Below are positions 406 through 26,019 of a DNA stretch of 26,019 bases, in pieces. Each line of letters opens with the position of its first letter. The stretch's first letter is position 1. A program made the position numbers and the translations under genes. Source of the DNA: a virus; IMG/VR virus record IMGVR_UViG_3300031772_000245, positions 1-26,019 of that record; one strand, given 5' to 3'. The notes beneath the pieces were generated by a model. It saw only the letters and a program-made list of their open reading frames with translations, was not told where the DNA came from and made no database searches.

Positions 406-1644
406 GTGGACGAGAAGAGCCTCCATAAGATTGCTCGGCGTGTGGCTTCCGGGAGAATCCGCACCGCTGGGATGATCGAGTTCAAAAAGGACCAGGGTCC
501 TATACGTCGAGACCTTAGGTCTCCTGGTTTCGAATGGACGGATAATGCTCTTCGCGATCTAGCTAAAGTTCTTTGGGCTTCTCAACGAGCCCATAGTTAT
601 GCATTATCTGCATATCAGACGTTCTCGAAAATGCAGTCCGCCCAATTTAGTCCTGACGGACTCCTTGGCGGTCGTGGTTATATCCAGTCTATAAAGGATA
701 TGAGAAGCTCTATGGCGCAGGCCGTTGAGGTTTTCAGTTCTTTTACCGATACTATCCAAGATGAAATAAATGCTGATCATTGGAGTAAGTCTGGAAGAGA
801 AGATGAAGAGACTTCCGAGCTTATCGACAATGCTGAAGAGATAAAGAAAGATCCGGAAACATTCGTTGAATCCGAATATGTTGATTCCGTCACCTCCGAA
901 CCAGGGGAGAATGATAATTATTTTGAATCTGGAGAGTATGAAGAGGAGCCCGTCGAAAATCCAGACGCCGATGATTTGAATCCTGAGCTTGCAGATTCAG
1001 ACGATTCAGATGACGACGATGATGACAATAATGACGACGACCTCCCAGAAATAGAAGGTTTCCATACTTCCTCCTCTTTGAGAGATCGTTATGACTACGG
1101 AGAGGAGTCCCCTAAGGCTAGTCTCCCGAATGATGAAACAGATCAGAGTTATGGGCAAACTGAATCAGAACTTCTGATGCATACTACGACCCCAGACCGG
1201 GGCAATATTGCTGGAATCAATAGATTAATTCGCCGTCATATGGCCAATTCTTCTGTTGACCCGAACACTCTCCCTGGACCTAGAGTTGAGCATCTCGGGC
1301 CTGCTTCATCTGAATCCGGGGTTTGGGCCGACGGCGATCCTTATGGTTCCGATGATCCAATGGGCAATAATTTATTCTCCGGCACTGACGACACCAATCC
1401 CCTTTATGAGGATTATTGTGCAGATGGTGTTAGTGCGTACGATACTCCCACCGATGGGGATTCTTCCATATTTAAAAAAGCTAGTTACTCAAATCTTCCT
1501 GGTGCGGATAATAAGAAAATTCTCCCGATATATGATTTAGGTTTATCAAGCCAAGATGTTGATCTCATACTGGCTGATCATGACGAAGCGGACGATGCTG
1601 GAGAACATAAGGATATGAAACCTTATAACTGGGATTTAGAATGA
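406..1644 (+). CDS. Acidic-linker phage protein, unknown function (412 aa)
   Basis: A GTG start at 406 is supported by AGGAGG at 396-401. Residues 1 to about 125 look folded and mostly helical, with an R-V-A-S motif at residues 12-15. The rest is low complexity and strongly acidic, including a run of Asp/Asn around residues 200-216, and is rich in Pro, Gly, Ser and Tyr. The C-terminal 20 residues form a second conserved-looking block ending in YNWDLE. The stop overlaps the next ATG by four bases (ATGA), indicating translational coupling. The position upstream of the packaging genes suggests a virion or assembly role, but no family is recognised. Acidic linkers of this kind are frequent in scaffolding and internal head proteins. 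Confidence 0.8.
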   Translation: MDEKSLHKIARRVASGRIRTAGMIEFKKDQGPIRRDLRSPGFEWTDNALRDLAKVLWASQRAHSYALSAYQTFSKMQSAQFSPDGLLGGRGYIQSIKDMRSSMAQAVEVFSSFTDTIQDEINADHWSKSGREDEETSELIDNAEEIKKDPETFVESEYVDSVTSEPGENDNYFESGEYEEEPVENPDADDLNPELADSDDSDDDDDDNNDDDLPEIEGFHTSSSLRDRYDYGEESPKASLPNDETDQSYGQTESELLMHTTTPDRGNIAGINRLIRRHMANSSVDPNTLPGPRVEHLGPASSESGVWADGDPYGSDDPMGNNLFSGTDDTNPLYEDYCADGVSAYDTPTDGDSSIFKKASYSNLPGADNKKILPIYDLGLSSQDVDLILADHDEADDAGEHKDMKPYNWDLE

Positions 1645-2708
1645 GTTCTGGACTCCCGGCTGATGATTCTGTATCCCGTCTTCTTCAGGACTTTGGTATA
1701 GGAATGTATGACTCAGACGTCTCCAACGTTCGTGGAGATTCTGATGATTTAGGTTCCGAACGTAATTCAAATGGTATATCAATCCCTGACGGAGGGGGTC
1801 CAGAGTCCGACCCTCCAGAACTTATGATTGGATATCCAATATTATCTTCTGATCTAGATGACCTTGATAGAGTTCTAGCCGCTATCAGCCTTCCTGGTGA
1901 TGTTGAACGTCCATCCATACGTTCAAAACGTCCGGCTGAAGATGTAATCGATGATCGTCTTCCTACTGTAGCCGATTCCGGTCTTCCGGATGATCATGAC
2001 AATCCTGCTGCTAGAACCGATTATTACGATCATATGACAACTAGTACTAGAAAACAATCTCTAGAGACTTCTCCATACTGGCCTGATGAAGATACCTCGG
2101 TATATGGCCAGGAGTCTCTTCCGAAAGTACCTAGTAACGAAGTTACTATGGACAATGATTTGGGCGCACTTGGTAACTACTTAAGTGGTTATGAAGTGGA
2201 AGATATATCAGGCCCGAATGGTTTTCCTTCTGAAGATTTTACTCAGAACGTTGACTATTCCCGTTCTAACGATGGAACTTCCGGTGGAAGCCTTATAGCT
2301 TCTAAATTGACGAGGGCAAGAATGAATAGAACTGCAACAAATATTAGCCTCGTTGATGATTTGACGAAGGAATTCCTCAAGGATTTCGGTAAGAAAGACT
2401 TGACTCGTCGTCACGTCATGACATTTCTTCAACAGAAGAATTCACATCAATATTTGGCTTCCGATATTGTTCGTAATTTGATGATACGGCACAATGTGTA
2501 TGTGAAAGATGTTTTGGATGAGTTCCCCGAGGGGGAACTCATACAGGATGGACGTAAGTCCATGGCATCAGTTCACGATAAACTTATTGAAGTTTCAATC
2601 TCGAATTTCAGGGACCCCGAGGTCGCCAACACAGTCCGTCGCTCTGCGGCTTCTGTTTCTACTGCTATAGCTCTACTTGAGAGGATTGGTGTCTTCAATG
2701 GCCGGTGA
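1641..2708 (+). CDS. Phage protein with disordered N-terminus, unknown function (355 aa)
   Basis: ATG at 1641 overlaps the previous stop (ATGA). The N-terminal 220 residues are acidic, rich in Asp, Ser, Pro and Gly, and probably disordered. Residues about 225-355 are basic and helical, with segments such as RHVMTFLQQKN and SDIVRNLMIRHNVYV that could form a small helical DNA- or protein-binding domain. Its layout (long acidic stretch plus one folded end) mirrors the preceding gene, so the pair may work together. No catalytic motif, membrane segment or zinc site is visible. The 3' end overlaps the start of the next gene by 11 bases. Confidence 0.78.
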   Translation: MSSGLPADDSVSRLLQDFGIGMYDSDVSNVRGDSDDLGSERNSNGISIPDGGGPESDPPELMIGYPILSSDLDDLDRVLAAISLPGDVERPSIRSKRPAEDVIDDRLPTVADSGLPDDHDNPAARTDYYDHMTTSTRKQSLETSPYWPDEDTSVYGQESLPKVPSNEVTMDNDLGALGNYLSGYEVEDISGPNGFPSEDFTQNVDYSRSNDGTSGGSLIASKLTRARMNRTATNISLVDDLTKEFLKDFGKKDLTRRHVMTFLQQKNSHQYLASDIVRNLMIRHNVYVKDVLDEFPEGELIQDGRKSMASVHDKLIEVSISNFRDPEVANTVRRSAASVSTAIALLERIGVFNGR

Positions 2709-4632
2709 GAAATTCGACCTTGACCGTGGCATTGGGGACCTAGAGGGTATATTCCATAACCAGGGTATATCCGATTTATCTTGGCTCTCTGTAACCGAAG
2801 AGGATTACAAGGCAGCAGAAACTTTGCCAAAGCAGAATCTGGATATAATACCTGATCTGCAAAAAGCTCTTTTTGAGGATAAGGACGGGGTTCCCCGTCT
2901 TATCCCTATGAAACCCCATGTCATTGTGAATCAGAATCCATCTGATTCACCTCATATAGTTCCGAAAGATGAAACATCTCCAATAAGAAACCGGCTTGCT
3001 CATTACATTATGAGCAACAGATCCTTTGATGAAATAACCCAGTTAATATCGCTGGAATTCTCTCAGTCTAGTTTGAGAATGGCTTCTAAGGAGATAACTC
3101 ACTTAATGGGTGAGAGAGGTCTTCTGGGGAATGTATATATCGACGCGAGTTGTTTTCCCCGTTGCGCAACGGATTCTAAAGAACAATCCTTTGTTCAGAA
3201 GAATGGTAAACGTGCTCTATACGTCCTTGCCAAAGAGTCTTGTTCCGACTGTGTAAATAATAAATCTGGTTTTTGTTCAGTTCTCGGCAGCAAGAGAATT
3301 GTCAATGAAGTTCCGTATGGAACTCAACTTGCTGCCCATTATGCCCCTCAGTTATCGTCCGAACTCCGTCCTTTGGACTTCGGAGTTTCCGGATGGAAGC
3401 AACGTGTTAAAACTGCCTTCCTGAAATCTCCTATCTCCTCAAGATCTGATGGTATTCAGACGGCCATGACGCAACATAAGGTTGCTTCTCCGGCCATTAC
3501 TAATGCTCATATCGATGAATTCGTGAATAGGCCTGCCGTTCAGGCCAACCGCGTTTCTTCTTCTTACTCAAAATTCGCTACCAGGATGATGTTCGGTCAT
3601 GATGATAGGGAGTTCCTTATTGCCTCCGGTGACAAGGAACTTCTTTCCTTGGCGTCTGAATTCGGCCTTTTAGGGCACTCTTGGCTGGATATGGATGCGA
3701 TTGGTGGGTGTAAGCCGACTCTGGCTTTCATTCGTCGTAGAGCTGATTCAGGTCTATCTAGCATATTTCCTGATTTTGTTCTTCGAAGGTCTTCTTGTGA
3801 GTTTTGCAAGAATGTGTCTGGTGGGTGCTGTTCGGAAATATCTAAGGTTTCAACTATCATAGATGAACTTCCGAAATATAATCGTATATCTTTTGCCAAA
3901 TCTTTACTACGTTCCGTTCGGAATGGCGTTATCTCCAATGACGAAGCTAAGCTAGCGGTTTCCAGATCTGCTTCTCTTAAGAATCCGAACTGGAGATCAC
4001 TTATTGCTTCTATTAATATGAAGAAACCGGAGAAATCCCCGACACCGTCATATTCAAACACAAGGGCAAAAGCTTTTACTGGGGTTTCTACTACTGTAGA
4101 AAGAATTATTGACCCCAATGAAGTTCGTAATTTCATATCAAAAGCCATGAATTCCGGACTTTCTGGTGAAGAGCTAAAATCTTCAATACTTAAAGTCTGG
4201 ACTAGGGATGAACTTTCTTCTGTACCTCAAGTTGCCAAGATAGCCTCATATAGTGGCATTCAGGGTACCCATTTCTTGGATCCAACTGCATATGGTGATT
4301 ATGGATCCGGATGTAATGAAGGATCCTCACTACTCAAAAAGAAAGACGTACCCCTTGTTCTTGCTTCTAGCAGGTGCACCGGTTGTACCCTTCAAACTTC
4401 TCCTGGTTGGTGTTCGAAGTATGCTAAAGGACTTCTTCGTAGTATTCCGGACTCCATAATGGCATCTATGAAGGTTACTCGGGCATCTTCAAAGATTCAT
4501 ACCGCTTCTGCTGTTAAATCGTCTGATCCAGTATCAGATTTTGACATTAGTAAACCTGATATTGAGATATCAAGTTCCGGTTTTGATTCAGATTTCTCGA
4601 TATCTGTTTCTTCCCCGAATATTGACATTTAA
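2698..4632 (+). CDS. Three-repeat cysteine-rich protein, putative metal-binding virion protein (644 aa)
   Basis: I choose ATG 2698, preceded by GAGAGGA at 2679-2685; TTG 2677/2686 and GTG 2689 are in-frame alternatives. The protein carries three copies of one module. Each has a lead-in with a conserved Asp (NVYIDAS at 145-151, HSWLDMD at 327-333, THFLDPT at 524-530), then a lone Cys (C156, C338, C539), then 20-28 residues, then a C-x2-C-x4-7-S-G-x-C cluster (C182/C185/C193, C367/C370/C377, C560/C563/C572) and a downstream proline. Four cysteines per module would suit one zinc ion or a small iron-sulfur cluster. The modules are separated by about 190-200 residues of Ser-rich helical linker. 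It ends in a Ser/Asp-rich tail. I do not recognise the family. Confidence 0.8.
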   Translation: MAGEKFDLDRGIGDLEGIFHNQGISDLSWLSVTEEDYKAAETLPKQNLDIIPDLQKALFEDKDGVPRLIPMKPHVIVNQNPSDSPHIVPKDETSPIRNRLAHYIMSNRSFDEITQLISLEFSQSSLRMASKEITHLMGERGLLGNVYIDASCFPRCATDSKEQSFVQKNGKRALYVLAKESCSDCVNNKSGFCSVLGSKRIVNEVPYGTQLAAHYAPQLSSELRPLDFGVSGWKQRVKTAFLKSPISSRSDGIQTAMTQHKVASPAITNAHIDEFVNRPAVQANRVSSSYSKFATRMMFGHDDREFLIASGDKELLSLASEFGLLGHSWLDMDAIGGCKPTLAFIRRRADSGLSSIFPDFVLRRSSCEFCKNVSGGCCSEISKVSTIIDELPKYNRISFAKSLLRSVRNGVISNDEAKLAVSRSASLKNPNWRSLIASINMKKPEKSPTPSYSNTRAKAFTGVSTTVERIIDPNEVRNFISKAMNSGLSGEELKSSILKVWTRDELSSVPQVAKIASYSGIQGTHFLDPTAYGDYGSGCNEGSSLLKKKDVPLVLASSRCTGCTLQTSPGWCSKYAKGLLRSIPDSIMASMKVTRASSKIHTASAVKSSDPVSDFDISKPDIEISSSGFDSDFSISVSSPNIDI

Positions 4633-4645
4633 GTATTGTCTTTGA

Positions 4646-5248
4646 ATGGGTGATGAAAAAGATACTGATTCTCCAGTAATCGAAGGGAAACTAATACAGT
4701 TCCCTTCGAAAAATGATATTGATATGGCAGAGATAGGTGTTAATTACGCCTCTCCTGTTTCTGCCAAAGATAATGAATATATACCTACTCTCTCTGATTT
4801 GAAAAAAATGGAGAAGGAGTTTAAAGAACGTGAGGAGTTTGTTAGAACTCAGGCTCTTGTTCAATCATCAGATTTAAAAATAAATCCTGTAGATCTTTCT
4901 GATCTTTTGATCAGAGAAATAGTAGAAGAACTATCTCATTTGAAATGGGAGAGACAGAAGTTAGCTAAAGCGGGAAAGTATGCTACTAACCAATCAGTTA
5001 GTCGTATAGCCGCCCTTAAGCAACTCTCTGAAATCCTTTCAAAAAGAATAGAGAACGCTAGAAATGAAAGACTTGATCTAAGGTCTCCTCGTTTCCAACA
5101 GGTTCTAAATCTGTGGATGAATTTTCTTTATGAATCTATGAAGAAAGTTAACCTGAACGATCAAGAAATAGACCTAGTTTTCGCCCAGATGAAAGCTGAT
5201 ATGCTAGATTGGGAGAAACTGTTGGTTGATCCTTCGGATAAACCATGA
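4646..5248 (+). CDS. Helical protein directly upstream of terL (200 aa); small-terminase candidate
   Basis: ATG at 4646 has only a weak upstream ribosome site. The N-terminal 45 residues look flexible; the remainder is nearly all charged helix and likely coiled coil, with stretches such as LSHLKWERQKLAKAGKY and the C-terminal FLYESMKKVNLNDQEIDLVF. Its stop codon overlaps the terminase ATG by four bases, so synthesis is coupled to the motor protein. In many phages the small terminase subunit sits just upstream of the large one and is helical and oligomeric, so this is a positional candidate. No recognisable helix-turn-helix is seen and I have no sequence match, so the role is an inference. Confidence 0.75.
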   Translation: MGDEKDTDSPVIEGKLIQFPSKNDIDMAEIGVNYASPVSAKDNEYIPTLSDLKKMEKEFKEREEFVRTQALVQSSDLKINPVDLSDLLIREIVEELSHLKWERQKLAKAGKYATNQSVSRIAALKQLSEILSKRIENARNERLDLRSPRFQQVLNLWMNFLYESMKKVNLNDQEIDLVFAQMKADMLDWEKLLVDPSDKP

Positions 5249-8200
5249 GTTCTAAAGAACCAGTACAGAAAAGCCTCCTTACCGGAACTGTAGACTCTTT
5301 TCTTAATCAGAAAAAAAGACAACAGTCTGAAACTGAAGGAAAATCTGAAGGTGATGTAGAATTTATCACCATCATAGAATTTGTCGATAGATTTAAACTT
5401 CTTCCATATGGTTTATTCCCTGCCCAAAAATTCATACTTAAATTATATTATGGATTACCTCTAGATGGTGATCTAAAATCAATAAAAATAACTGATAAGT
5501 TCAATAAGATAATTCTTCATGAACTTACCGAAAAAGAATATCTTGCATATTTATACGATAACGGGAGATGTAATATAAGAGTCCAAGATGGGAGGATAAG
5601 GAATGAACTCATTCTGGTAGCTGGCAGACGAGCTGGTAAAAGCGAAATAAGCAGCATAGTTTGTGCGTATGAAATATATAAATTAATTTGCAGAGGGAAT
5701 CCGCAGGCATATTACGGTATGCCTGCCAGCTCTGAAATCCGCGTTCTTGATATTGCTAATGATAAGGATCAGGCCTCAATAGTTTACGGAAATATGCAGG
5801 GTTATATCGGTTCAATAGATTATTTCAAAAGTTCAAATACGCATGACACCCAATCCTATATGAAATTCAGGTCTGATGGTGATAGAAAGAAATTTGGTCC
5901 GGAAGGAAAATGTATAATTGAGGGCTCTCTTGTTTTAACTAATCGTGGTCTTTTATCGATTGAATCTTTTGGGAATCCGACTGGTCCAGAATGGCAAGAC
6001 ATTAACTTTAAGGTTGCTCAGGAAGGGAAATCTGTACACGAATTTGCTACAAATTTCTATAGTGGTGGTGAACAATTAGTAAAGAAATTGGTCACGAAAA
6101 ATGGTTATGAATTATCTGCCACTCCAGAACATAGAATTAGAGTTCTTTCCTCAGACGGGGAAATAGTGTGGAGACAATTTAATGACATAAAAATCGGTGA
6201 ATTTATTGGAATAAACAGGTCTACTAATCTGTGGTCTGATTCTTATTTTCAGACTTCTGAATTTGTGAACGAATCTCTAAATAAATTCGATGATTCGTTT
6301 TCCTTAAAGATTGGAAAATTTATAAATTGGATTGGTGGCATCGAAGGCCCCGTGGATATGACAGTATCCGAGGTTTGTGATTTGATTGGAGTAGCCTCTT
6401 TAAGGGGTGTTCTTTCTCATTTGAAGTCAATTGGATTTGATGTTCGGAAGACTGTAAAATTAAGGAAATTTGGTGCCGGTTCTACCGTTCGATGGTATCC
6501 GACAAAAATAGAATGGGATAAAAATGCAGGAAAAAATACAAAGTCCATAAATTTTCCGGAATTTCTTGATGAAAAATGGGGAGAAATTCTTGGTATATTG
6601 ACAGGTGATGGTACGTGGAATTATAAGAGTGGTATTGAGATCACAGGTGGATGTAAAGAATTTAAAAAATATTTGATTGATTTATTTAATGAGAATTTCA
6701 GCAATCATAAAATATTTTATAAGAAAAAATCTGATAATGCGTGGCAAATCAGGTCTTATTCGAAACCACTTCGCAGATTTTTGGAGAGACTTGGTTATGT
6801 AAAATATAAACCATCTGATAAGAGAGTTCCATTTGTTATTTTTCAGTCTCCTCGCTCTGTGGTAGCTTCCTATCTTCGCGGTCTTTTCGAAACTGATGGA
6901 ACAATTAATGAAAATGGGTTAGGCCTCTCTTTTTGTACCGCATCACACCGTTTAGCTTCTGAAGTTCAACTTTTGCTTTTAAATTTTGGTATTATATCCA
7001 ATCTTCGAAGTAAATATAACAGAAAGTATGATAAATACTATTATGATTTGATGATTATTGGAAATAATTCTTATAATATATTCAAGAAAGAAATTCGCTT
7101 TATAACAGATAGAAAGAACTCCAGACTTGATTCGATTCGCGCAAATAAGAATCTTGAGATGATTCCGAATCTTAACATTCAGTTGAGGAATATTATTAAT
7201 AATATTCCTCAACGTACAAGTAGTAAGTTAAAAACAAGGTTTATTAAACTCGCTGGAGACGCAGTAGATTCGAAGCGGAATTCTGGAATATCATATATAT
7301 CACTACGTGGATGTATTGAAATCGCCCGAGAAGCAAACATTGATGATTCATTGATCAAGAATTTGGATCATGTACTTAACACTTTCTATTATTGGGATCC
7401 TGTTAAGTCCATTACTGACGATAAGAAAAAAGTATATGATTTATGTGTTCCGAGTGGTTCTTCTTTCGTATCTCAAGGAATGACGAACCATAACTCGACT
7501 ATAGTTTCTTCCTTCAAAAGTTCGATAGCTAAGGGCCTCCGTGGTCGCGGCGTTATCTGTGCCGTTTTAGATGAGATAGCTTTCTTTATTGATAATGGAC
7601 ACAGCTCCGCTGAAAAGGTTTATCGAGCTTTAAATCCATCACTTGCTCAGTTTTCTCCTAAAGATCCCAAGGATAAACATATACCAATAGGAGAGACCCA
7701 TGGAAGAATGATTTTAATATCATCTCCTGATTCAAAAGAGGGTTTTTTCTATAATCAATATCTCAAAGCTATGTCCAATGATCCTGGATCTGCCAATATG
7801 TTGGTCATCCAGGCCCCCACGTGGGAAATTAATCCAACAATTTCCCCATCTTATTATGAAACTGAATTTTATAAGGACCCTGCTTCATTTAGAACAGAGC
7901 ATGGGGCTGAATTTTCTGATCGTGTTCGTGGTTGGATCGAAGATGCTGTTGATTTAAATACTATAATTGACCCTCTTCTTCGTCCAAAATTTAGGGGTTT
8001 ACCCAGGGAAGTACATTTTGCCGGAGTGGACTTTGGATTATCGAAAGATGGAACTTCCATAACTTTAACCAAATTCGCTAGTGGAAAAGTTGAACTGGTT
8101 TATCATGAAATATGGTATCCCAGAATTAGATGGAGAGATTCAAATCCACATTTGAATGATCCCATCAATCCCTATGCTCTAACTATTCATGAAACAAATC

Positions 8201-8775
8201 GTCTTGATATAGATCAAATAGCCGATTGGTTTTCATCATTGTCAAAATTATTTTATATACATAAAGGGATCTTCGATCAGTGGGCCGGGCCTGTCTTCGA
8301 GCAGATTCTACATAAAAAGGGCCTTGAACAATTTGAAATGAGGAATTTTCACACTTCAGATTCTTCATATATGTACCAGAATTTCAAAATGATGATGTTT
8401 AATAAAAGACTTTCTCTCTATGATTGGCCCATCCCGGATCCTTCAGAAACTGGAGGCTCCAGACATTCTCCATTAATTCAAGAGCTTCTCGAACTCCAGG
8501 CAACCTCTGCTGGTAAGAACATGATAATAGTAGAAGCCCCGAAAGTTGTTGGGAAACATGATGATATGTCCGATTCTCTTGCTCGTTCAGTTCTCCTGGC
8601 CTCGGAGTACATAAAAGATAACCCTAGCGCTCTTGACGTTAATCACATATCGGGAGTATCCGCTTACGCCCCCAGGATAGCTTCCGGTTCGCATGGTCAG
8701 TATCATAGAATGAAAGCTCGAATTCATGGGGTCAACAGAGATCGCATTCCGGGCATGAGGCAAAGGGTCCGCTGA
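5245..8775 (+). CDS. terL: Terminase large subunit, interrupted by an intein (1176 aa precursor)
   Basis: This is the packaging motor ATPase and nuclease that pumps DNA through the portal and cuts the concatemer. Walker A is GRRAGKS at residues 127-133. Walker B is VLDE at 774-777, with a hydrophobic lead-in. The RNase H-like nuclease begins with GVDFGLS (D929) and ends with HDDMSDSLA (D1106/D1107/D1110 region), the usual Asp positions for metal binding. An intein occupies residues 223-750; removing it leaves a 648-residue protein, a normal TerL length. The junction is K222|C223 on the left and N750|S751 on the right, between the two ATPase motifs. ATG 5245 overlaps the upstream stop. The C-terminal tail holds an R-I-A-S motif (R1144). 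The stop codon lies inside a terminator-like hairpin. Confidence 0.96.
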   Translation: MSSKEPVQKSLLTGTVDSFLNQKKRQQSETEGKSEGDVEFITIIEFVDRFKLLPYGLFPAQKFILKLYYGLPLDGDLKSIKITDKFNKIILHELTEKEYLAYLYDNGRCNIRVQDGRIRNELILVAGRRAGKSEISSIVCAYEIYKLICRGNPQAYYGMPASSEIRVLDIANDKDQASIVYGNMQGYIGSIDYFKSSNTHDTQSYMKFRSDGDRKKFGPEGKCIIEGSLVLTNRGLLSIESFGNPTGPEWQDINFKVAQEGKSVHEFATNFYSGGEQLVKKLVTKNGYELSATPEHRIRVLSSDGEIVWRQFNDIKIGEFIGINRSTNLWSDSYFQTSEFVNESLNKFDDSFSLKIGKFINWIGGIEGPVDMTVSEVCDLIGVASLRGVLSHLKSIGFDVRKTVKLRKFGAGSTVRWYPTKIEWDKNAGKNTKSINFPEFLDEKWGEILGILTGDGTWNYKSGIEITGGCKEFKKYLIDLFNENFSNHKIFYKKKSDNAWQIRSYSKPLRRFLERLGYVKYKPSDKRVPFVIFQSPRSVVASYLRGLFETDGTINENGLGLSFCTASHRLASEVQLLLLNFGIISNLRSKYNRKYDKYYYDLMIIGNNSYNIFKKEIRFITDRKNSRLDSIRANKNLEMIPNLNIQLRNIINNIPQRTSSKLKTRFIKLAGDAVDSKRNSGISYISLRGCIEIAREANIDDSLIKNLDHVLNTFYYWDPVKSITDDKKKVYDLCVPSGSSFVSQGMTNHNSTIVSSFKSSIAKGLRGRGVICAVLDEIAFFIDNGHSSAEKVYRALNPSLAQFSPKDPKDKHIPIGETHGRMILISSPDSKEGFFYNQYLKAMSNDPGSANMLVIQAPTWEINPTISPSYYETEFYKDPASFRTEHGAEFSDRVRGWIEDAVDLNTIIDPLLRPKFRGLPREVHFAGVDFGLSKDGTSITLTKFASGKVELVYHEIWYPRIRWRDSNPHLNDPINPYALTIHETNRLDIDQIADWFSSLSKLFYIHKGIFDQWAGPVFEQILHKKGLEQFEMRNFHTSDSSYMYQNFKMMMFNKRLSLYDWPIPDPSETGGSRHSPLIQELLELQATSAGKNMIIVEAPKVVGKHDDMSDSLARSVLLASEYIKDNPSALDVNHISGVSAYAPRIASGSHGQYHRMKARIHGVNRDRIPGMRQRVR
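5911..7494 (+). mobile_element. LAGLIDADG intein in terL (528 aa)
   Basis: The intein starts at Cys (TGT at 5911, precursor residue 223) in an EGSLVLTNRGL block A. Block B is TPEHRIRV. It ends with a VYDLCVPSG block F and the HN|S junction (Asn at 7492-7494, Ser +1 at 7495). These are the residues that splicing needs: Cys1, the block B His, the terminal His-Asn and a Ser nucleophile. Two LAGLIDADG motifs lie between: LGILTGDG at precursor residues 449-456 and LRGLFETDG at 544-552, both with the catalytic Asp, so the homing endonuclease looks intact. At 528 residues it is long for an intein; residues after the second motif probably hold extra DNA-binding sequence. Its codons are visibly more AT-rich than the flanking terL exteins, which fits later arrival. 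Confidence 0.95.
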
Positions 8776-9461: not shown

Positions 9462-12407
9462 ATGGCAAAGAAATCTGTCGGCGTCAATCCGCCCAAAAAC
9501 TCGAAAAATTCTATGCCTGTCATCAAGGTTGATGAACAGGATATTTCTCGTACCAAACTGACTAAACTTGAGAGATTGGCTAAACTCCAATCTCAGCAGT
9601 CTGTTCGCCTTGGTTCAGTTACCAATTTCGGAAACGCTTCTGGCGGTTCCATAAGGGACGCTGATTCTTCTTTCTACAGCCCTCAGCTATCCACAGACTT
9701 TTTAGAATTACCTCAGTCGGATCGCGAGAAACGAGAACTTTTTCGTTTCTGGTATCAAGTGCATCCGATAGTTGGATCAGCCATAGATTTCCACTGTTTT
9801 CCTCCAGGGGCTCCCGTATCTCTAATTGATGGGTCCGTTAAATTTATTGAGGACTTGAAAGTCGGCGATAAAGTCCTAAATGGATTAGGGGAAAAAACTG
9901 AAGTTGTCGGCACTTTTTCACACGATGTGGACACTTCAATCACCAAGATAAAGGTCCGTGGTGTTCAAGATATTATTGATTGTACACAGAATCATCCATT
10001 CCGGATCTATACTTCAGACCAAGTAGATTGCAAGTTCCCTAACATAGGAATGGGTGCTTGCAAAAGTGGTACTAAGAACCTATGTAAGCAGAGAAAATGT
10101 GAAGGAATTGATTTCGGTGCCTCGAAGTTTATTTTTGCCCAAGATTTGAAAGTCGGAGACTATATTTGCTCTCCCTCCATGGTAAGTTCTAATAAAGTAC
10201 TCAATAAGAATCAACTCCGTTTGCTTGGATATTATGCGGCTGAGGGGTCTTTATCCTATACAGATTATGGCAAGAATAGCCGGATTGAATTTACTCTTAA
10301 TTCCAATGGATTCAACACTGTTGCTGAAGAAATATCGAAGACTCTGATGTCTGAATATGAATATCCATCTACCAAAAAAATTAGGGAAGACTCTAACTCT
10401 TGTTATGTTAGAGTATATAGGAAGGATTTTGCGGATTTTTGTTCAGAACATGTTGGCAGTGGGTCTCTGAACAAAAAACTCAGTTCTGCTATAATGGATT
10501 CTCCCCGAGAAGACATTCTAGAATTTCTTGGTGCTTACTGGAATGGGGATGGATCCCTCACTAAGAATGGATATGTTGCTACTACTGTTTCAATGCAGCT
10601 TGCTCACCAGATCCATGCTTTGGCGTTGAAAGTCGGCTACGGTGCTACTCTGCATCGACATGTCCCTAAGACTTCTACCGGATTTAAATATACGGATTGT
10701 GTTTATAGAGTAATTGTTCCATATAAGTTTCATGAAGAGTTTTCAAAATATGCTAATTTTGTTCAAGATGGATACACCGCTGATTCGACTAGAGAATACT
10801 TCATTAAGATCGACAATGATATTTTGAGGAGAATTGAGTCGATTGAAACTGTCCATTATAAAGGTCCTGTTTATAATATAGAGGTTGATGGTGAAGGTGA
10901 CCGGAAAAGCTATATAGCTTATGGATTATCCACCCATAATACTGATGTGCCAATGTCTAAGCTACGTCTTTCTCTCCCAAAGGGGAAGGATGTTAAAAGA
11001 AATAAGCAAATACAGCAGTTCTTTCAGAGGATGTCACAACGCATTAGGTTATTCCAAACTCTCCATGAAGCAACACATGAATATTGGCTTCACGGAATAG
11101 TATTCTTGTTCGCTGAAGATCACGATTTGGTTCCGGAAATTCCAAAAGAATTAGTGGTTGATTCTGTCACTGAAACTTTAGAAGGTGTTGATTGGGCCGG
11201 TCGTTCGAATTCAAGAAATGTAGAAAAAAAGACTGTTAAGCCTGACGAAGAACTTTGGAAAAATATATCTGAATTCGTTCAAAAAAATTATCAGGGATGG
11301 CAGAGACTTCAAATTCTTCCTCCCGAACAGGTGAAAACCGAGGTATTTCAGTATACCAATCGTATGAAGATGGAATTAATTCCATCTGATAAAGATAAAA
11401 TGGTGGTAATGAAGGCTAAGGAAAATGATCCTGAAGCTCAAAAGATTGCTGACGATATACCGCATGAAATTAGAGAAAGTCTTGAAAATGGGACTCCCAT
11501 ACCTTTGAGTTCGAGCCCATATGATGATTATTTATGTTCTTCTTTCTGCTATCAATTAGCTCATAAGAAGAGTCCGTATGATACCCGTGGAATTTCACTT
11601 CTCGAACGATGCTTAAGGACACTTCTTAAGCAGGATAAACTTCGTCAGGCGCAGACAAGCATAGCTTCCCGTGCCATGACCCCTAAACGAATCGTTTGGG
11701 CGGATAAATTGTCTGAGGCCAACGTCGAGGATCTTCGTGATCAGGTAGATCAAGCTCTGATCGATCCCGATTTCACTATAGTAACTAACTTCGAAGTTCA
11801 TTGGGATGAAATTGGAGCGCGTGATCGTCTCCTTGATCTTTCCTCTGAATATGAGATGGATAATAAATTACTCTTTATAGGCCTTAGAATTACCGAGTCC
11901 ATGCTTACAGGAGAGTCTTCATATGCGGGCGAGCGCATTCATCTTGATGTCATGAATACCATGTATCTCCTATATCGGGAACAGCTTGCTGACTATGTTG
12001 AGAATTATCTCTTTCTACCTGTCGCTAAAAAGAAAGGTTTCTTTGAGATAGACGAAAACACTGGAGAGAAGATATATTTATATCCTCAACTCCAGTTCAC
12101 ACGTTTAGCTTTGAGAGATCAGGCTGACACCATGGATGTTCTCTTCAATTTATATCAGAAAGGGTCTCTCCCTGTTTCTTTCATTCTTGACCTTTTGAAT
12201 ATTGATCCTAGTGATACACTGGAACAGCTTAAGGCTGATATGTTTGGTCCCAATGATTCTACGTTCAATGAATTCATAAGAAATGCTCTCCAGAAGGCCG
12301 GAGATGCCGCTATTGATTCGACAAATATTATGGAAATAGTTGCCAGAAATGCCGGTTTGACTATTAAAAAACAGAAAGAAGAAGGTGATAGATTCGGTGA
12401 GGAATAG
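9462..12407 (+). CDS. Portal protein, interrupted by an intein (981 aa precursor)
   Basis: The portal forms the ring at one head vertex through which TerL pumps DNA. ATG 9462 follows a GGTGG-like site. Residues 112-493 are an intein; the mature extein is about 599 residues, fitting large-phage portals. N-terminal extein features include FWYQVHPIVGSAIDFH just before the intein and TDVPMSKLRLSLP just after it. Later segments are typical of portal wing and stem regions: LERCLRTLLKQDKLRQAQT, an ITESMLTGESSYAGERI block, and a C-terminal helical clip with LALRDQADTMDVLFNLYQKG. Gene order (terL, two small genes, portal, then protease, scaffold and capsid) supports the call. The splice junction is H111|C112 and N493|T494. 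Confidence 0.9.
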   Translation: MAKKSVGVNPPKNSKNSMPVIKVDEQDISRTKLTKLERLAKLQSQQSVRLGSVTNFGNASGGSIRDADSSFYSPQLSTDFLELPQSDREKRELFRFWYQVHPIVGSAIDFHCFPPGAPVSLIDGSVKFIEDLKVGDKVLNGLGEKTEVVGTFSHDVDTSITKIKVRGVQDIIDCTQNHPFRIYTSDQVDCKFPNIGMGACKSGTKNLCKQRKCEGIDFGASKFIFAQDLKVGDYICSPSMVSSNKVLNKNQLRLLGYYAAEGSLSYTDYGKNSRIEFTLNSNGFNTVAEEISKTLMSEYEYPSTKKIREDSNSCYVRVYRKDFADFCSEHVGSGSLNKKLSSAIMDSPREDILEFLGAYWNGDGSLTKNGYVATTVSMQLAHQIHALALKVGYGATLHRHVPKTSTGFKYTDCVYRVIVPYKFHEEFSKYANFVQDGYTADSTREYFIKIDNDILRRIESIETVHYKGPVYNIEVDGEGDRKSYIAYGLSTHNTDVPMSKLRLSLPKGKDVKRNKQIQQFFQRMSQRIRLFQTLHEATHEYWLHGIVFLFAEDHDLVPEIPKELVVDSVTETLEGVDWAGRSNSRNVEKKTVKPDEELWKNISEFVQKNYQGWQRLQILPPEQVKTEVFQYTNRMKMELIPSDKDKMVVMKAKENDPEAQKIADDIPHEIRESLENGTPIPLSSSPYDDYLCSSFCYQLAHKKSPYDTRGISLLERCLRTLLKQDKLRQAQTSIASRAMTPKRIVWADKLSEANVEDLRDQVDQALIDPDFTIVTNFEVHWDEIGARDRLLDLSSEYEMDNKLLFIGLRITESMLTGESSYAGERIHLDVMNTMYLLYREQLADYVENYLFLPVAKKKGFFEIDENTGEKIYLYPQLQFTRLALRDQADTMDVLFNLYQKGSLPVSFILDLLNIDPSDTLEQLKADMFGPNDSTFNEFIRNALQKAGDAAIDSTNIMEIVARNAGLTIKKQKEEGDRFGEE
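9795..10940 (+). mobile_element. LAGLIDADG intein in the portal gene (382 aa)
   Basis: The intein begins at Cys (TGT 9795, precursor residue 112) with CFPPGAPVSLIDGSVKFIED, a clear block A. Block B is TQNHPFRIY. The end is YNIEVDGEGDRKSYIAYG followed by STHN|T, giving the terminal Asn at 10938-10940 and Thr +1 at 10941. Two homing motifs are present: LLGYYAAEG (254-262, with Glu as acidic residue) and FLGAYWNGDG (355-364, with Asp). Between blocks B and C there is a cysteine-bearing insert (CKSGTKNLCKQRKC) that may bind metal. All splicing residues are present, so it should be active. It differs strongly from the terL intein in sequence and length, so the two are not recent duplicates. Confidence 0.94.
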
Positions 12408-14859: not shown

Positions 14860-15393
14860 ATGGCTATAGACAAGGCGATTGCAAATCAGGTTCTTTCTCA
14901 TCTCGATTCTTCGGCTAAAAAGCTTGAAGGTCTTGTTAAGGACGGGAAGCTTGATGCAAAGGTAGCCTCAGAGATGATCCTCAAGATCGATACCTTTGCC
15001 GATAAATTCCAGGTTGCCGCTTTCGGTGAGGAGAACCTCCGAAAGTTCCAAGCTAAGGTTTTGAAGCAGGATAGCGACGAGCCTTATATGAAGACCTTCG
15101 ACAACCCCAATAAGCCTCTCCAGGTTGAAGCAGATGAGCCTTATATGAAGAAGGTGGATAAGACCTTCAGTGGCGGCCCGATCGACACGTACGACAACGA
15201 CAACTCAAGTGGCGTTTCGGAGCGCAAGGAACCCCAGGTCCGTGATCTGAGCCCCCTTTCGTCTGCCAAGAAACAACCGAGCCAGCCCAGCTATGGTGGT
15301 AAGAGCACGCACCAGGGTTCGCAGGCTCCTGCGAAGACCTGGGCTCCTCGTCGGGTCGTTGCTAAGAAGACCGAGAAGACCTGGGCTCCTTGA
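14860..15393 (+). CDS. Small phage protein with internal short repeats (177 aa)
   Basis: ATG 14860 has a good ribosome site, CTGGAGAG at about 14846-14853. The first 60 residues are helical (KLEGLVKDGKLDAKVASEM). The rest is low complexity with two internal repeats: DEPYMK at residues 73-78 and 92-97, and KTWAP at 159-163 and 173-177, where the second copy is the C-terminus. GC content and codon choice are higher and more selective than in neighbouring unknown genes, resembling the scaffold and capsid genes, which suggests strong late expression. No family recognised; a minor head or head-completion protein is plausible from position only. Confidence 0.78.
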   Translation: MAIDKAIANQVLSHLDSSAKKLEGLVKDGKLDAKVASEMILKIDTFADKFQVAAFGEENLRKFQAKVLKQDSDEPYMKTFDNPNKPLQVEADEPYMKKVDKTFSGGPIDTYDNDNSSGVSERKEPQVRDLSPLSSAKKQPSQPSYGGKSTHQGSQAPAKTWAPRRVVAKKTEKTWAP

Positions 15394-15407
15394 ATTCGGA
15401 GTTACCT

Positions 15408-16103
15408 GTGACTATTCGGACGGCTTTCATAGACGACAAATTGGCCGCCCACGGTTTCCATACAGGTGATGCTGTTCGGAAACCTGGGCTTTCAGGCATA
15501 TGGCTTAGTCCTTATGCTGGAAAAGTCTTATGGTCGAACACGGATACCGGAAAAGTCCAGGTTCAATGGCCTTGGGGTGCTGAATCGGAGAGTGCCATAG
15601 AGCTGATATTGTCAGCCTCGGATTCCGTTTCTGTGCCGAATTATGATCAGAGCTATTCTACTTGGGAGAGTACTAAATATATAGACTCTCCGGAAGTTTT
15701 AAAAGCTGACGGTAAATGGCGAAAGTCTTTGGCTTCCGTTGTTTCATCCCACGAAGCTTTGCTTGATCAAGTTCGCTACCAAGCCTGTAAGTTAGCTTGT
15801 CATGACGTATCGGAGCCGTTGGCTTCCTTTTTGGTCGCTACCAAGTTCGATAATGTTTTAGATACCGGTATTTCTCGCTACGAAGTCAGCTCCGTTTATT
15901 CACACGGTCGCAGACTGGCAATATACTGGAAGGACTCCGGTCGCAGATTCCGCGTCACTCAGCGCGAGAAGAATTCTGGCGTTCTCGAATGTCCCCGTTG
16001 CGATGGCGTTCTGAAGCCCCGTATATATCGCCAGGGTCGGAGAGTCCTTCTTTGCAGAGTCTGTGGTTTCGTTATCCGACCTAAAGATCTCGTCCACAAA
16101 TAG
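15408..16103 (+). CDS. SH3/KOW-like protein with C-terminal zinc ribbon (231 aa)
   Basis: GTG 15408 is chosen because GGAG at 15398-15401 sits six bases upstream; TTG 15390, overlapping the previous stop, is an alternative. Residues about 15-65 resemble a small SH3/KOW-type beta barrel: FHTGDAVRKPGLSG, then GKVLWSNTDTGKVQVQWPWG. The C-terminus is a zinc ribbon with C195-x2-C198 and C216-x2-C219, separated by a basic linker (YRQGRRVLL). Such modules bind nucleic acid or mediate protein contacts. The combination within a late structural operon is unusual, and I cannot give it a precise role. The gene ends four bases before the stop of a minus-strand gene that faces it. Confidence 0.8.
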   Translation: MTIRTAFIDDKLAAHGFHTGDAVRKPGLSGIWLSPYAGKVLWSNTDTGKVQVQWPWGAESESAIELILSASDSVSVPNYDQSYSTWESTKYIDSPEVLKADGKWRKSLASVVSSHEALLDQVRYQACKLACHDVSEPLASFLVATKFDNVLDTGISRYEVSSVYSHGRRLAIYWKDSGRRFRVTQREKNSGVLECPRCDGVLKPRIYRQGRRVLLCRVCGFVIRPKDLVHK

Positions 16104-16963: not shown

Positions 16964-18520
16964 ATGGCTCGTCGACACTATGCAAATGCTTTGGTAAACA
17001 ATCCAAACATTGAATTTGCGAAATGGATGGATGTTGCTCGTGCTAGATATGAAGGGGTAGTTCCTAAGAATCGCCTACATAGAATCGCAAAATCGACTTT
17101 AAATAAAATAGATATTAATCAGTACCTTCTTTCACATGCTACTATAGTAGCATCTGTTGATACTTTTTCTCCTAAGAATGTTAAACTTGGCCGTCAACTG
17201 AACCGTGGCGTTCAGATCGATGTTAGGTTCCCTGATTTTCGCACTAGCGTCGAATCAGAGAAATATATTAATAACAATCGTGACGCATGGAGTCGTCCTC
17301 TTCTACTCTCTACGTATCGGACTTTCGTCGGTGCTCACGTTTTCGTTGAGCATATTCAACTTCCTGAGCTTTCGAAGGGCTTTATTGTTGATGCCATAGC
17401 CAGAGACCTTGGCGATACCGTCTACGTCGATATTCTCACAGCAACCGATCGCAAACATGCAAGACTAATAGACGATATTCTTTCTTGCAATATGAACGCA
17501 TACAGCATGGGCTGTATAAGTCAGTTCACTATTTGCAATAAGTGCGGAAACGTAGCTGTTGATGATGCTTCTACATGTCCCTGCGTTCAATACGACGGCA
17601 AGGGATCAAAATTTTTAGATGAGGATGGTGTTGAACACGTCCTTTGCGAACTCATTGGACATGCCGCTGTTCCTGATTCAAATCAGTTTATAGAGGCCAG
17701 TTGGGTTAAACATCCTGCTTTTGAGGGTGCTGTTCATCGACAATTCCTGAATCAGGACTTGTTTGGTGAGACGCGCGTTGCCGGCAAAATCCAGAATGCA
17801 TCTCGAATCCACGAGATTCGTAAGGATGTCGAGATACCTGGTGATATGTGGAAACAGGTCGCGTCTACTAAAAGGCGTGCTCTAGATCCTGATCCCGATG
17901 GTGACATTGCTGAAGATGCACCACCGGATGAGGATGCACCCGATGATGCGGATGCCGTAGAGTCTCCAAAAGACAAACCGCCCGCCGCTTCTGGTTCGAG
18001 CATGGATAAGCTTCTCGACCAAGCTCAGGAGAAATTACTCCAGATTCTCGTTGATAAACTTGGGGAGAGATTAACCCCAAAACCTGAAGATGTTGGAAGT
18101 GTTCAATCGTTGAAGGCACCAGTTAACCTGGAATCCGGAAACGACAATCTTCAACATTCCTCAGAAGAGTTTACACGTCGTCTCAAAGCCAAATTCAGTA
18201 AATCTCCCATGCTTGTTCGTTGGGCTTCTGCTACTTGGAAGACCGCATATAATCCAAGCAATCCTAAAGCCCGTGGAAGCCTTTCCCCGAAGTCTCTGAT
18301 CATATTGAGTTGGATAGAAGACAGTCTTAACGGTAAGAATTTTAGTCCAGACTTATATCGTGCAGTTATTGAATCTGGAAAAATCACTGATTATCCCAGT
18401 GAAAAATCATACGTTGCAACCTGCAGATCAAAAATTTTCCGGCCTCTAAAAGGGTCTGAAGAGGCGTTCTTAGTTCGTAAAGGACGAATAGCGTCGTTGT
18501 CCAAAATTTCAAAATTTTAA
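16964..18520 (+). CDS. Prohead (head maturation) protease-like protein with Cys cluster (518 aa)
   Basis: ATG 16964 has AGAGGA at 16952-16957. Residues 60-250 look like the phage prohead protease fold. VFVEH (H130) is followed 51 residues later by YSMGC (S181); T4 gp21-type proteases use a His and a Ser with similar spacing and an SMG/SxGF-like motif. Directly after is CNKCGN plus TCPC (C191, C194, C205, C207), a probable zinc site that I recall in related large-phage head proteases. The rest is an acidic linker (about 305-345), then a basic helical C-terminal domain. R-x-A-S motifs occur at R419 and R508, the latter 11 residues from the end. The C-terminal region may be a fused scaffold or targeting part. 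Location just before scaffold and capsid genes is classical. Confidence 0.75.
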   Translation: MARRHYANALVNNPNIEFAKWMDVARARYEGVVPKNRLHRIAKSTLNKIDINQYLLSHATIVASVDTFSPKNVKLGRQLNRGVQIDVRFPDFRTSVESEKYINNNRDAWSRPLLLSTYRTFVGAHVFVEHIQLPELSKGFIVDAIARDLGDTVYVDILTATDRKHARLIDDILSCNMNAYSMGCISQFTICNKCGNVAVDDASTCPCVQYDGKGSKFLDEDGVEHVLCELIGHAAVPDSNQFIEASWVKHPAFEGAVHRQFLNQDLFGETRVAGKIQNASRIHEIRKDVEIPGDMWKQVASTKRRALDPDPDGDIAEDAPPDEDAPDDADAVESPKDKPPAASGSSMDKLLDQAQEKLLQILVDKLGERLTPKPEDVGSVQSLKAPVNLESGNDNLQHSSEEFTRRLKAKFSKSPMLVRWASATWKTAYNPSNPKARGSLSPKSLIILSWIEDSLNGKNFSPDLYRAVIESGKITDYPSEKSYVATCRSKIFRPLKGSEEAFLVRKGRIASLSKISKF

Positions 18521-22740: not shown

Positions 22741-23397
22741 ATGGACTCAGAATACATCGTCGAGGTCTTAGAAACTATATCAAAATATGTTGGCACATCT
22801 CCCGAAGACCTCGCTGTGACTGTCGCTTCCAGGTTAAACAACCCTTTCGCTGTTCTCGTGTCTACGATTCTATCTCTTCGGACCCGAGACGAGGTCACCG
22901 CTATCGTGACTCCTCGCTTTTTAAGCGCTGCTTCGACTCCCCAAGAGACCGTTCTTCTGACTGAAGAACAAATAGAGAACCTTATCTACCCGACCAGTTT
23001 CTATAGGATGAAATCGAAATATATATTGAACATTTCAAAAGATCTCATTTCTAAATTCGACGGCAAGGTTCCGGACTCAATGGAGGACCTTCTTACTTTA
23101 AAGGGCATCGGACGAAAATCTGCGAACTTAATTATAAATCTTGCTTTTAAGAAAGACGGAATATGTGTCGATGCCCACGTTGGAAGAATTGTTAATAGAT
23201 TAGGGTTCGTCCAGACTTCGGATCCCGAAGCCACCGAGTACGCCTTAATGTCTGTTTTACCTCAGAAATGGTGGATTCCGATCAATGGTGATTTCATAGC
23301 TTTTGGACGAAAAACATGTACTCCAACATCTCCCAGATGTTCTTCTTGTCCTGTTTCCCATCTATGTGAAAAGAATGGTGTTAAAAAATTCCGTTGA
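22741..23397 (+). CDS. nth: Endonuclease III (DNA glycosylase/AP lyase) with 4Fe-4S cluster (218 aa)
   Basis: This base-excision repair enzyme removes oxidised pyrimidines and cuts the abasic site. The helix-hairpin-helix is LKGIGRKSANLIINLAF, with the catalytic lysine at K126 and the catalytic aspartate at D144 in VDAHVGRIVNRLGF; the 18-residue spacing is that of E. coli Nth (K120/D138). The C-terminus has C193-x6-C200-x2-C203-x5-C209, the exact iron-sulfur cluster spacing. Length (218) is normal, so the enzyme should be active. ATG 22741 has no strong ribosome site. It lies in the accessory end of the window, beside unknown genes and a Cas12-like gene. A phage Nth may protect its DNA from oxidation or abasic damage. 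Confidence 0.93.
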   Translation: MDSEYIVEVLETISKYVGTSPEDLAVTVASRLNNPFAVLVSTILSLRTRDEVTAIVTPRFLSAASTPQETVLLTEEQIENLIYPTSFYRMKSKYILNISKDLISKFDGKVPDSMEDLLTLKGIGRKSANLIINLAFKKDGICVDAHVGRIVNRLGFVQTSDPEATEYALMSVLPQKWWIPINGDFIAFGRKTCTPTSPRCSSCPVSHLCEKNGVKKFR

Positions 23398-24312: not shown

Positions 24313-24351
24313 TCGATTGTAAATCTTGGTCGGTTGAGTGTAATTCGATCC

Positions 24352-26019
24352 ATGGCATCTGCAGATAAGCTTCCGACCAGAATTTATACATTCGGTCTTC
24401 TGCCTCCAAAATCAGGAGGAGAAGCTCTCCATAGGATGTTGAGGGCTTCCTGTCATTATTACAACGCTCTGCTCGAAATCGAGCTTTGGAAGCGTAAAGA
24501 AACCGCCAAATTCTGGGCCCAGAGAGGCGGATACTCCGACAAGCTCGAACAGTTGGAGACTTTAAATGATTCCGTACGCAAGACGCCGGATGATGCGAAA
24601 CCTGTTCTTTATTCCCAGATTAAAGAACTTGAACTTCACATTCGTGAGTTACGGGAAGCGGTAACAATGAAGTCTCTTCCAAAGGAAGAAGCTCGACGCC
24701 GCGAACGCGAAAAAGAAATCAAAGCAGATTTCAAAAGTAGAAAAATCGTTCTCTCCAAATCAAGACTCATGGATCTTCTTGATTTGGAACCCGATTGTGT
24801 TTCCCCTCGTCGTCGTTTCCAGCTGAATTTTTCGGTAGACTCAGAAAAGCGCGGAGTGAAGCCGAGCGGGAAGCTTCTAAACAAGCTTCTTAAAGAAGCA
24901 AACCTTATCAAGACAACTCAACATATTGATGACCAGGTATCGATTGATATCGAGCGGGCCAAAAAATATTATGGTCTGTACTATGGCACCTACGCCCTAA
25001 TTGACGATGCTGTAGACCAGGCTTTAAGGACTTCGGATACTTTCCCGGCTTTCAAACGCTGGACCGGAGAAGGCCGTGTCGGGTCTCCTGTCAGTACAAA
25101 CGAGGGATTGAACGTTAGCTCAGTTCATGATTGTTCTTTCGAAAATGGTACTTGGGCTGATAAGGGGAATACTGTTCTCCAAATCGTAAAAATCCCGGAC
25201 GAAGTTTGGGAGCAAAAAACCTCGCGTGAAAAGGGCGTCGATGGTGAACCAAATTCAAGTTGGGTTCGGAAAACGCGTACCAATATGAGGATTTGTGTTG
25301 ATTCTCTTGGTCGAGCCAATCGTGGCAGACTACCCGTCTGGGTTGAGTTTCCTATCGTCATTCACCGTCCTCTCCCGAAAAACGGAAAAATTGTCGGTGC
25401 ATGGGTTTCCATATTCATGCGCGGTAATCGAACGAAATATGAGCTTCAACTCCAAGTTCAGGATGAGACTCATCTTCATCCAAAGAAGCCTCATGGTGAT
25501 GGGACCGTTGCTTTCAACTTCGGTTATCGATCAACTGGACGCGTGGCATATACCCTCGATGATACTAATTTTGCTCAGGAAATGACTGTTGATCCGAAGG
25601 TAGAGAAGAAGATTGATCTTGCGGACAAACGAAGACAGTCACGGGAGCTTGCTGCCAATGAAATGCGAGATTCCATCTTGAAATGGTCCAAGGACTGCAT
25701 TTTTCCTGATTCTTTTAGTAGGAATGATGGTAAGAAAATCATTATTCCTCATTGGTCAGGGGAGGAATCTCGTGCAAGAAGCTATAACGAACGCTCCTTG
25801 AGGAAGAAGATTGAACTTCTCCCTCTCGCGAAAGACGAAAGTCTTTCAAATAGACTCCATAGTGTTCACAACGAGTGGAAATTCGTTTTGGCCATGGATT
25901 CACTTCTTAGTTTTTTCTGCGGCCCGAATACTCTTGTTCGTCCAGAGGACAAAATAATTTTTGAGGAGCTAAATACTTGGACCTTTGACGATAAATCAAT
26001 CCAGAACCATGAAGCCGGG
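24352..26019 (+). CDS. Cas12m-like type V CRISPR effector (partial, 556 aa visible)
   Basis: An open frame runs from ATG 24352 off the window edge with no stop. The N-terminus (YTFGLLPP, then a helix with HYYNALLEIE) resembles compact Cas12 effectors. Residues about 60-150 are charged, probably coiled helices, as in a REC region. Residues 276-288 (LQIVKIPDEVWEQ) and 327-342 (LPVWVEFPIVIHRPLP) match segments I recall from Cas12m2 of Mycolicibacterium. RuvC-I is VAFNFGYRSTGR, with N389 where the catalytic Asp normally sits. RuvC-II is IIFEELN, with E538. The 149-residue spacing between them is close to what I recall for Cas12m. RuvC-III and the zinc ribbon would lie beyond the edge. TnpB is an alternative, but the N-terminal part before RuvC-I (about 380 residues) is too long. 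There is no strong ribosome site. Confidence 0.8.
   Translation, partial: MASADKLPTRIYTFGLLPPKSGGEALHRMLRASCHYYNALLEIELWKRKETAKFWAQRGGYSDKLEQLETLNDSVRKTPDDAKPVLYSQIKELELHIRELREAVTMKSLPKEEARRREREKEIKADFKSRKIVLSKSRLMDLLDLEPDCVSPRRRFQLNFSVDSEKRGVKPSGKLLNKLLKEANLIKTTQHIDDQVSIDIERAKKYYGLYYGTYALIDDAVDQALRTSDTFPAFKRWTGEGRVGSPVSTNEGLNVSSVHDCSFENGTWADKGNTVLQIVKIPDEVWEQKTSREKGVDGEPNSSWVRKTRTNMRICVDSLGRANRGRLPVWVEFPIVIHRPLPKNGKIVGAWVSIFMRGNRTKYELQLQVQDETHLHPKKPHGDGTVAFNFGYRSTGRVAYTLDDTNFAQEMTVDPKVEKKIDLADKRRQSRELAANEMRDSILKWSKDCIFPDSFSRNDGKKIIIPHWSGEESRARSYNERSLRKKIELLPLAKDESLSNRLHSVHNEWKFVLAMDSLLSFFCGPNTLVRPEDKIIFEELNTWTFDDKSIQNHEAG

Follow-up and report, generated by a model that had tools for sequence, protein, structure and literature searches.

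Gene neighbourhood of the Cys protein

We analysed a 26,019-nucleotide stretch of viral DNA (the window), in which a plus-strand gene encodes a protein of 644 amino acids with 14 cysteines, referred to here as the Cys protein. The mechanical open reading frame of this gene opens further upstream, with a TTG at 2677, and the start codon was placed at the ATG at 2698, which is backed by the starts of homologues. The genes of the locus and the parts of the Cys protein are listed below with the basis of each assignment.

406..1644, + strand: co-conserved gene of unknown function, 412 aa, with an acidic stretch (homologue upstream in 31/33 loci)
1641..2708, + strand: co-conserved gene of unknown function, 355 aa, overlapping both neighbours (locus comparison)
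2698..4632, + strand: triple Cys-module protein P0001, 644 aa (ORF call and homologues)
2728..2856, + strand: conserved N-terminal segment, residues 11-53, GxGD...SDLSWL...LPKQNLDxIP (near-invariant alignment columns)
2971..3342, + strand: module 1, residues 92-215, helical lead-in and Cys core 3109-3315 (alignment, hhalign)
3553..3873, + strand: module 2, residues 286-392, Cys core 3655-3873 (alignment, hhalign)
4105..4506, + strand: module 3, residues 470-603, Cys core 4246-4449 (alignment, predicted fold)
4522..4629, + strand: C-terminal tail, residues 609-644, VENPVEKYEL... in relatives (alignment)
4646..5248, + strand: putative small terminase subunit, 200 aa (assigned solely from its place and helical character)
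5245..8775, + strand: large terminase subunit with a LAGLIDADG intein (homologue comparison)

The first three genes overlap one another (406-1644, 1641-2708 and 2698-4632), the Cys gene sharing 11 nt with the end of the gene upstream of it. In one relative, L104 (1-3504), the 412-aa, 355-aa and Cys proteins lie in a single open frame, and in another, L102 (3-1508), the 412-aa and 355-aa genes are fused. These fusions suggest that the three products act jointly. Homologues of the putative small terminase and the large terminase were found downstream of the Cys gene in all 33 loci, and the gene order running from small terminase through to major capsid protein was kept in the five records checked, including the 485-kb uncultured huge phage LR745208.1, an unannotated record in which two of the genes were unmatched. 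The Cys gene sits within this conserved head/packaging block, where a gene for an internal head or ejection protein would be expected. The capsid protein of the window showed 44% identity to that of Tunturiibacter phage Tunturi_5 and 37% identity to that of Bacillus phage G, which places the lineage near these two phages; in Bacillus phage G, the capsid protein is common to the lineage but no Cys module was found.

Several other features of these regions were recorded. The portal gene (9462-12407) carries a LAGLIDADG intein, as does the large terminase gene; in certain relatives, additional DNA separates the small terminase gene from the large one. By eye, a 237-aa head-module protein (15390-16103) ends in a zinc-ribbon-like C-x2-C pair and the head maturation protease (16964-18520) has a C-x2-C...C-x-C insert that looks zinc-binding. 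A phage-encoded endonuclease III-like glycosylase with the EndIII-type iron-sulphur motif lies at 22741-23397, and the end of the window (24334-26019) resembles, by eye, a transposase/TnpB-like ORF without a Pfam match. Two TnpB-like ORFs are also present near the terminase genes of LR745208.1 (15108-16409 and 18577-19860).

Three homologous copies of one domain

All 14 cysteines of the Cys protein lie inside a module, in three groups (152, 156, 182, 185 and 193; 338, 367, 370, 377 and 378; 539, 560, 563 and 572) at the positions given by the first-pass annotation. Three C-x2-C-x6-9-C clusters did not occur in any of 20,000 composition-preserving shuffles of the protein. The copies had been described as 190-200 residues apart, which is nearly correct, the distances from lone Cys to lone Cys being 182 and 201. 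The S-G-x-C ending attributed to each cluster was found in modules 1 and 2, but not in module 3, which reads C-x2-C-T-L-Q-T-S-P-G-W-C.

Profile comparison with hhalign demonstrated homology among the modules, thereby confirming the earlier reading of three domains. With the wider alignments, E-values were 1.2e-24 between modules 3 and 1, 3.2e-18 between modules 1 and 2 and 3.6e-13 between modules 3 and 2. Slices of a 26-row alignment gave 1e-18 (modules 1 and 3), 4e-10 (modules 1 and 2) and 3e-5 (modules 2 and 3), as against 0.1-0.5 for column-shuffled controls of the same slices. The Cys protein is thus a triplication of one domain. The linkers had been taken as unconserved, which was in part incorrect, because a homologous helical lead-in belongs to each repeat, so that the repeat unit measures about 115-130 residues. 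Each unit runs in the order helical lead-in, a G-x-x-G-x-x-[YF]-x-D strand, lone Cys, helix, strand, C-x2-C, last Cys and strand.

When module 3 was modelled alone, from 48 module sequences drawn from modules 3 and 1, the predicted fold reached a pLDDT of 92.8 and a pTM of 0.83, which would argue for an autonomous domain. The first full-length model was reasonable for modules 1 and 2 (pLDDT about 80) and poor for module 3, and a fold search with it returned matches limited to small helical pieces. Foldseek found no match for the module-3 model in PDB or BFVD at E ≤ 1, and the best VIA-align score was Z 2.5. Scans of the Cys protein, its relatives and the modules against Pfam, PHROGs and NCBIfam gave nothing above noise, and no relatives were found in the GTDB genomes scanned. 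In PDB, the best sequence-profile matches, among them one to ribosomal eL42 (E 0.09) and one to NrdR (E 0.56), were taken as chance. The domain family is new to Pfam, PHROGs, NCBIfam and PDB, its sequence and predicted fold being unmatched in the libraries searched, and its initial description as an unknown family therefore stands.

The lead-ins bear on whether the Cys protein is a DNA-binding packaging factor, in which helix-turn-helix-like lead-ins would let the modules recognise phage DNA or aid the terminase. Such a role fits the placement of the Cys gene, which always adjoins a putative small terminase gene and the large terminase gene. Two weak signals also fit it: a structural likeness between the lead-ins and parts of cullins (Z 2.5-4.1), and a Pfam TerS_N match over the module-1 lead-in of one relative, L011 (E = 0.0033, 17.8 bits). 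That match, however, was found in one of 26 members and falls below the curated cut-off of 27 bits, the predicted third helix of module 3 is four residues long, and a separate putative small terminase gene lies downstream. We therefore consider DNA binding an unlikely function of the modules, although it is the strongest of the alternatives to a metal-stabilised head protein.

Cysteine sets across relatives and the predicted metal site

Searches with the Cys protein or its alignment revealed relatives in IMG/VR virus contigs of up to 436 kb, and a search with the module-3 alignment added further relatives in IMG/VR contigs of up to 529 kb; one relative was present in LR745208.1. We surveyed 45 non-redundant homologues from huge phages, comprising 131 modules. 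Module cores make up 30% of the residues of these proteins and hold 548 of their 585 cysteines. The four cysteines of module 3 were invariant in 45/45 proteins, and those of module 2 in 29/29 aligned proteins that retain the site, so the possibility raised at the outset, that the cysteines might not be conserved in homologues, was not borne out.

The cysteines were kept or lost as sets. Four to six were present in 127 of the 131 modules, none or one in four and two or three in none, counts which come from 45 related proteins and are not independent. All four module-2 cysteines were absent together in L047, L053 and L089, where the module is still recognisable; these three form one clade with support of 100/100 in the tree. 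Entire modules were absent as well: module 2 in L056 and L117, and module 1 in L105. LR745208.1 (L058), which shares the gene order of the window, retains the module-3 site alone, but differs in that its module 1 lacks the cysteines of the site and its module 2 is not recognisable. Cys156 was replaced in seven sequences (L003, L004, L006, L008, L014, L017 and L046), each of which has a new Cys within the cluster, so that the count stays at least four. All-or-none cysteine sets, together with a new Cys taking the place of Cys156, are the pattern that a four-ligand metal site predicts.

From these alignments, we regard it as very likely that each module carries one four-Cys metal site. The putative ligands are C156, C182, C185 and C193 in module 1, C338, C367, C370 and C378 in module 2, and C539, C560, C563 and C572 in module 3. 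C152 was rejected as a ligand since it is not conserved among homologues, and C377 since it is specific to this 644-aa protein. In each predicted site, a lone Cys comes first, C-x2-C second and the final ligand 7-14 residues later; the ion is probably Zn2+. Metal-stabilised repeat domains are already known as a kind, and the chemistry predicted here would be ordinary. Classical zinc ribbons and knuckles share a presumed Cys4 site with a C-x2-C, but have two C-x2-C hairpins, whereas each module has a single one, the other two ligands being single residues and one of them far off; no sequence or fold match to them was obtained in the libraries searched.

The same four cysteines could instead hold a 4Fe-4S or 2Fe-2S cluster, making the modules redox-sensitive or structural iron-sulphur domains. 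The order of lone Cys, C-x2-C-x(n)-C is used by several iron-sulphur proteins, and the tail-tip protein gpL of phage lambda, which has an iron-sulphur domain, offers a phage parallel. One member also gave very weak Pfam matches to Fer2_BFD (E = 0.19) and HIPIP (E = 0.8), but these are far under the cut-off and confined to 1/26 members. The stretch from C-x2-C to the last Cys ranges from 7 to 14 residues across modules, and such variation is more usual in zinc loops than in loops that bind a cluster. The 4Fe-4S motif of the endonuclease III type likewise has four cysteines including a C-x2-C, but is spaced C-x6-C-x2-C-x5-C, whereas the lone Cys of the modules precedes C-x2-C by at least about 20 residues and the last follows 7-14 after; no module showed the EndIII-type spacing or a Pfam match. 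An iron-sulphur cluster thus appears improbable. Disulphides or a metal-free thiol switch, to which the even number of conserved cysteines per module would be suited, are very improbable, since pairwise bonds would permit the loss of two cysteines, which is the class of modules never seen (0/131), whereas C-x2-C and two more cysteines are retained or lost together, with one ligand exchanged for another within the cluster, and tailed-phage heads are assembled in the reducing cytoplasm.

Candidate protease motif, Tunturi_5 gp348 and the proposed role

The motif [RK]-x-A-S was in excess in several head genes of the window taken with their relatives: 18 sites against 2.6 expected in the scaffold, 15 against 2.8 in the protease, 19 against 5.1 in a 797-aa protein and 71 against 17.9 in the Cys protein. 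The portal, the capsid protein and a 217-aa protein showed no enrichment. In the 45 Cys proteins, 142 sites were observed against 30 expected, and every control motif was less enriched in this family than [RK]-x-A-S. In the protease and the 797-aa protein, some sites close to the C-terminus are conserved in position. We propose [RK]-x-A-S as a candidate prohead-protease motif. In the Cys family, the sites have no fixed positions and are not excluded from the Cys cores, the rate outside the cores being 1.16 times that inside, so that these data lend weak support to cleavage of the Cys protein, which we treat as a lead only.

A module-3 profile matched Tunturi_5 (PP885688.1) within gp348, at 303514-303837 (E = 9.1e-6). 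Tunturi_5 is a myovirus of 309 kb whose head measures 113 nm (PMC11924767). Its gp348, annotated as a hypothetical protein of 530 aa, has exactly eight cysteines, all of them in two sets, C255-x24-C280-x2-C283-x12-C296 and C433-x18-C452-x2-C455-x7-C463, the second being assigned by cysteine pattern as its own profile score was not significant. It also adjoins terminase genes, being followed by gp349 (170 aa), gp350 and then the large terminase across the record start. It differs from the Cys protein in having two C-x18-24-C-x2-C-x7-12-C sets rather than three, and an extended N-terminal region in which several KTAS sites occur. The direct hhalign score was modest (E 2.7e-4, probability 42%), and the claim of homology therefore draws jointly on score, genomic position and the pattern of cysteines; on these, we take gp348 of this cultured Acidobacteriota jumbo phage to be a distant relative of the Cys protein.

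The late block of Tunturi_5 contains 26 [RK]-x-A-S sites against 8.7 expected (Poisson P about 2e-6), whereas the rest of the genome has 46 against 44.8, so that the late block alone shows an excess. The 276 ORFs of this phage are headed by gp348, with 7 sites where 1.1 are expected (about 0.05 after correction for the number of ORFs). Late-block genes with an excess of the motif include those annotated as DNA ejection and DarB-like. A term search of the isolate paper (PMC11924767) found no virion proteomics of Tunturi_5.

Considering the gene neighbourhood along with the domain structure, we think it rather probable that the Cys protein is a component of the head interior or of the packaging vertex, although a position beside the terminase would also suit a packaging or assembly factor outside the virion. 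The protein would be produced from the unit of three overlapping genes that adjoins the genes for the small and large terminase subunits. In each copy, one metal ion with four Cys ligands would hold a small strand-knuckle core together, a structural role that would stabilise a small domain on a flexible chain. The copies would serve as repeated binding units, so that whole copies or sites can be lost while the protein is kept. The N-terminal segment (residues 11-53) is possibly a docking segment, and the prohead protease may trim the protein at [RK]-x-A-S sites. As a whole, the reading of a late head/packaging protein with three copies of an undescribed domain, each with one structural metal, is the one that we favour by a small measure. 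A fuller version is put forward tentatively, and we consider it rather doubtful: the domain would have a fold of its own, in which a helical bundle is fused to a Cys4 metal core, would be confined to one huge-phage lineage and would serve as a repeatable module of an internal head protein, which a prohead protease of new [RK]-x-A-S specificity would cut and which might be ejected with the DNA.

The domain family is now named and delimited, and it adjoins the terminase genes in a phage lineage that is large and for the most part uncultured. The all-or-none cysteine pattern turns what was a curiosity into a testable prediction of a metal site, and through the link to gp348 of Tunturi_5 the proposed head role and the candidate protease motif become testable by ordinary proteomics.
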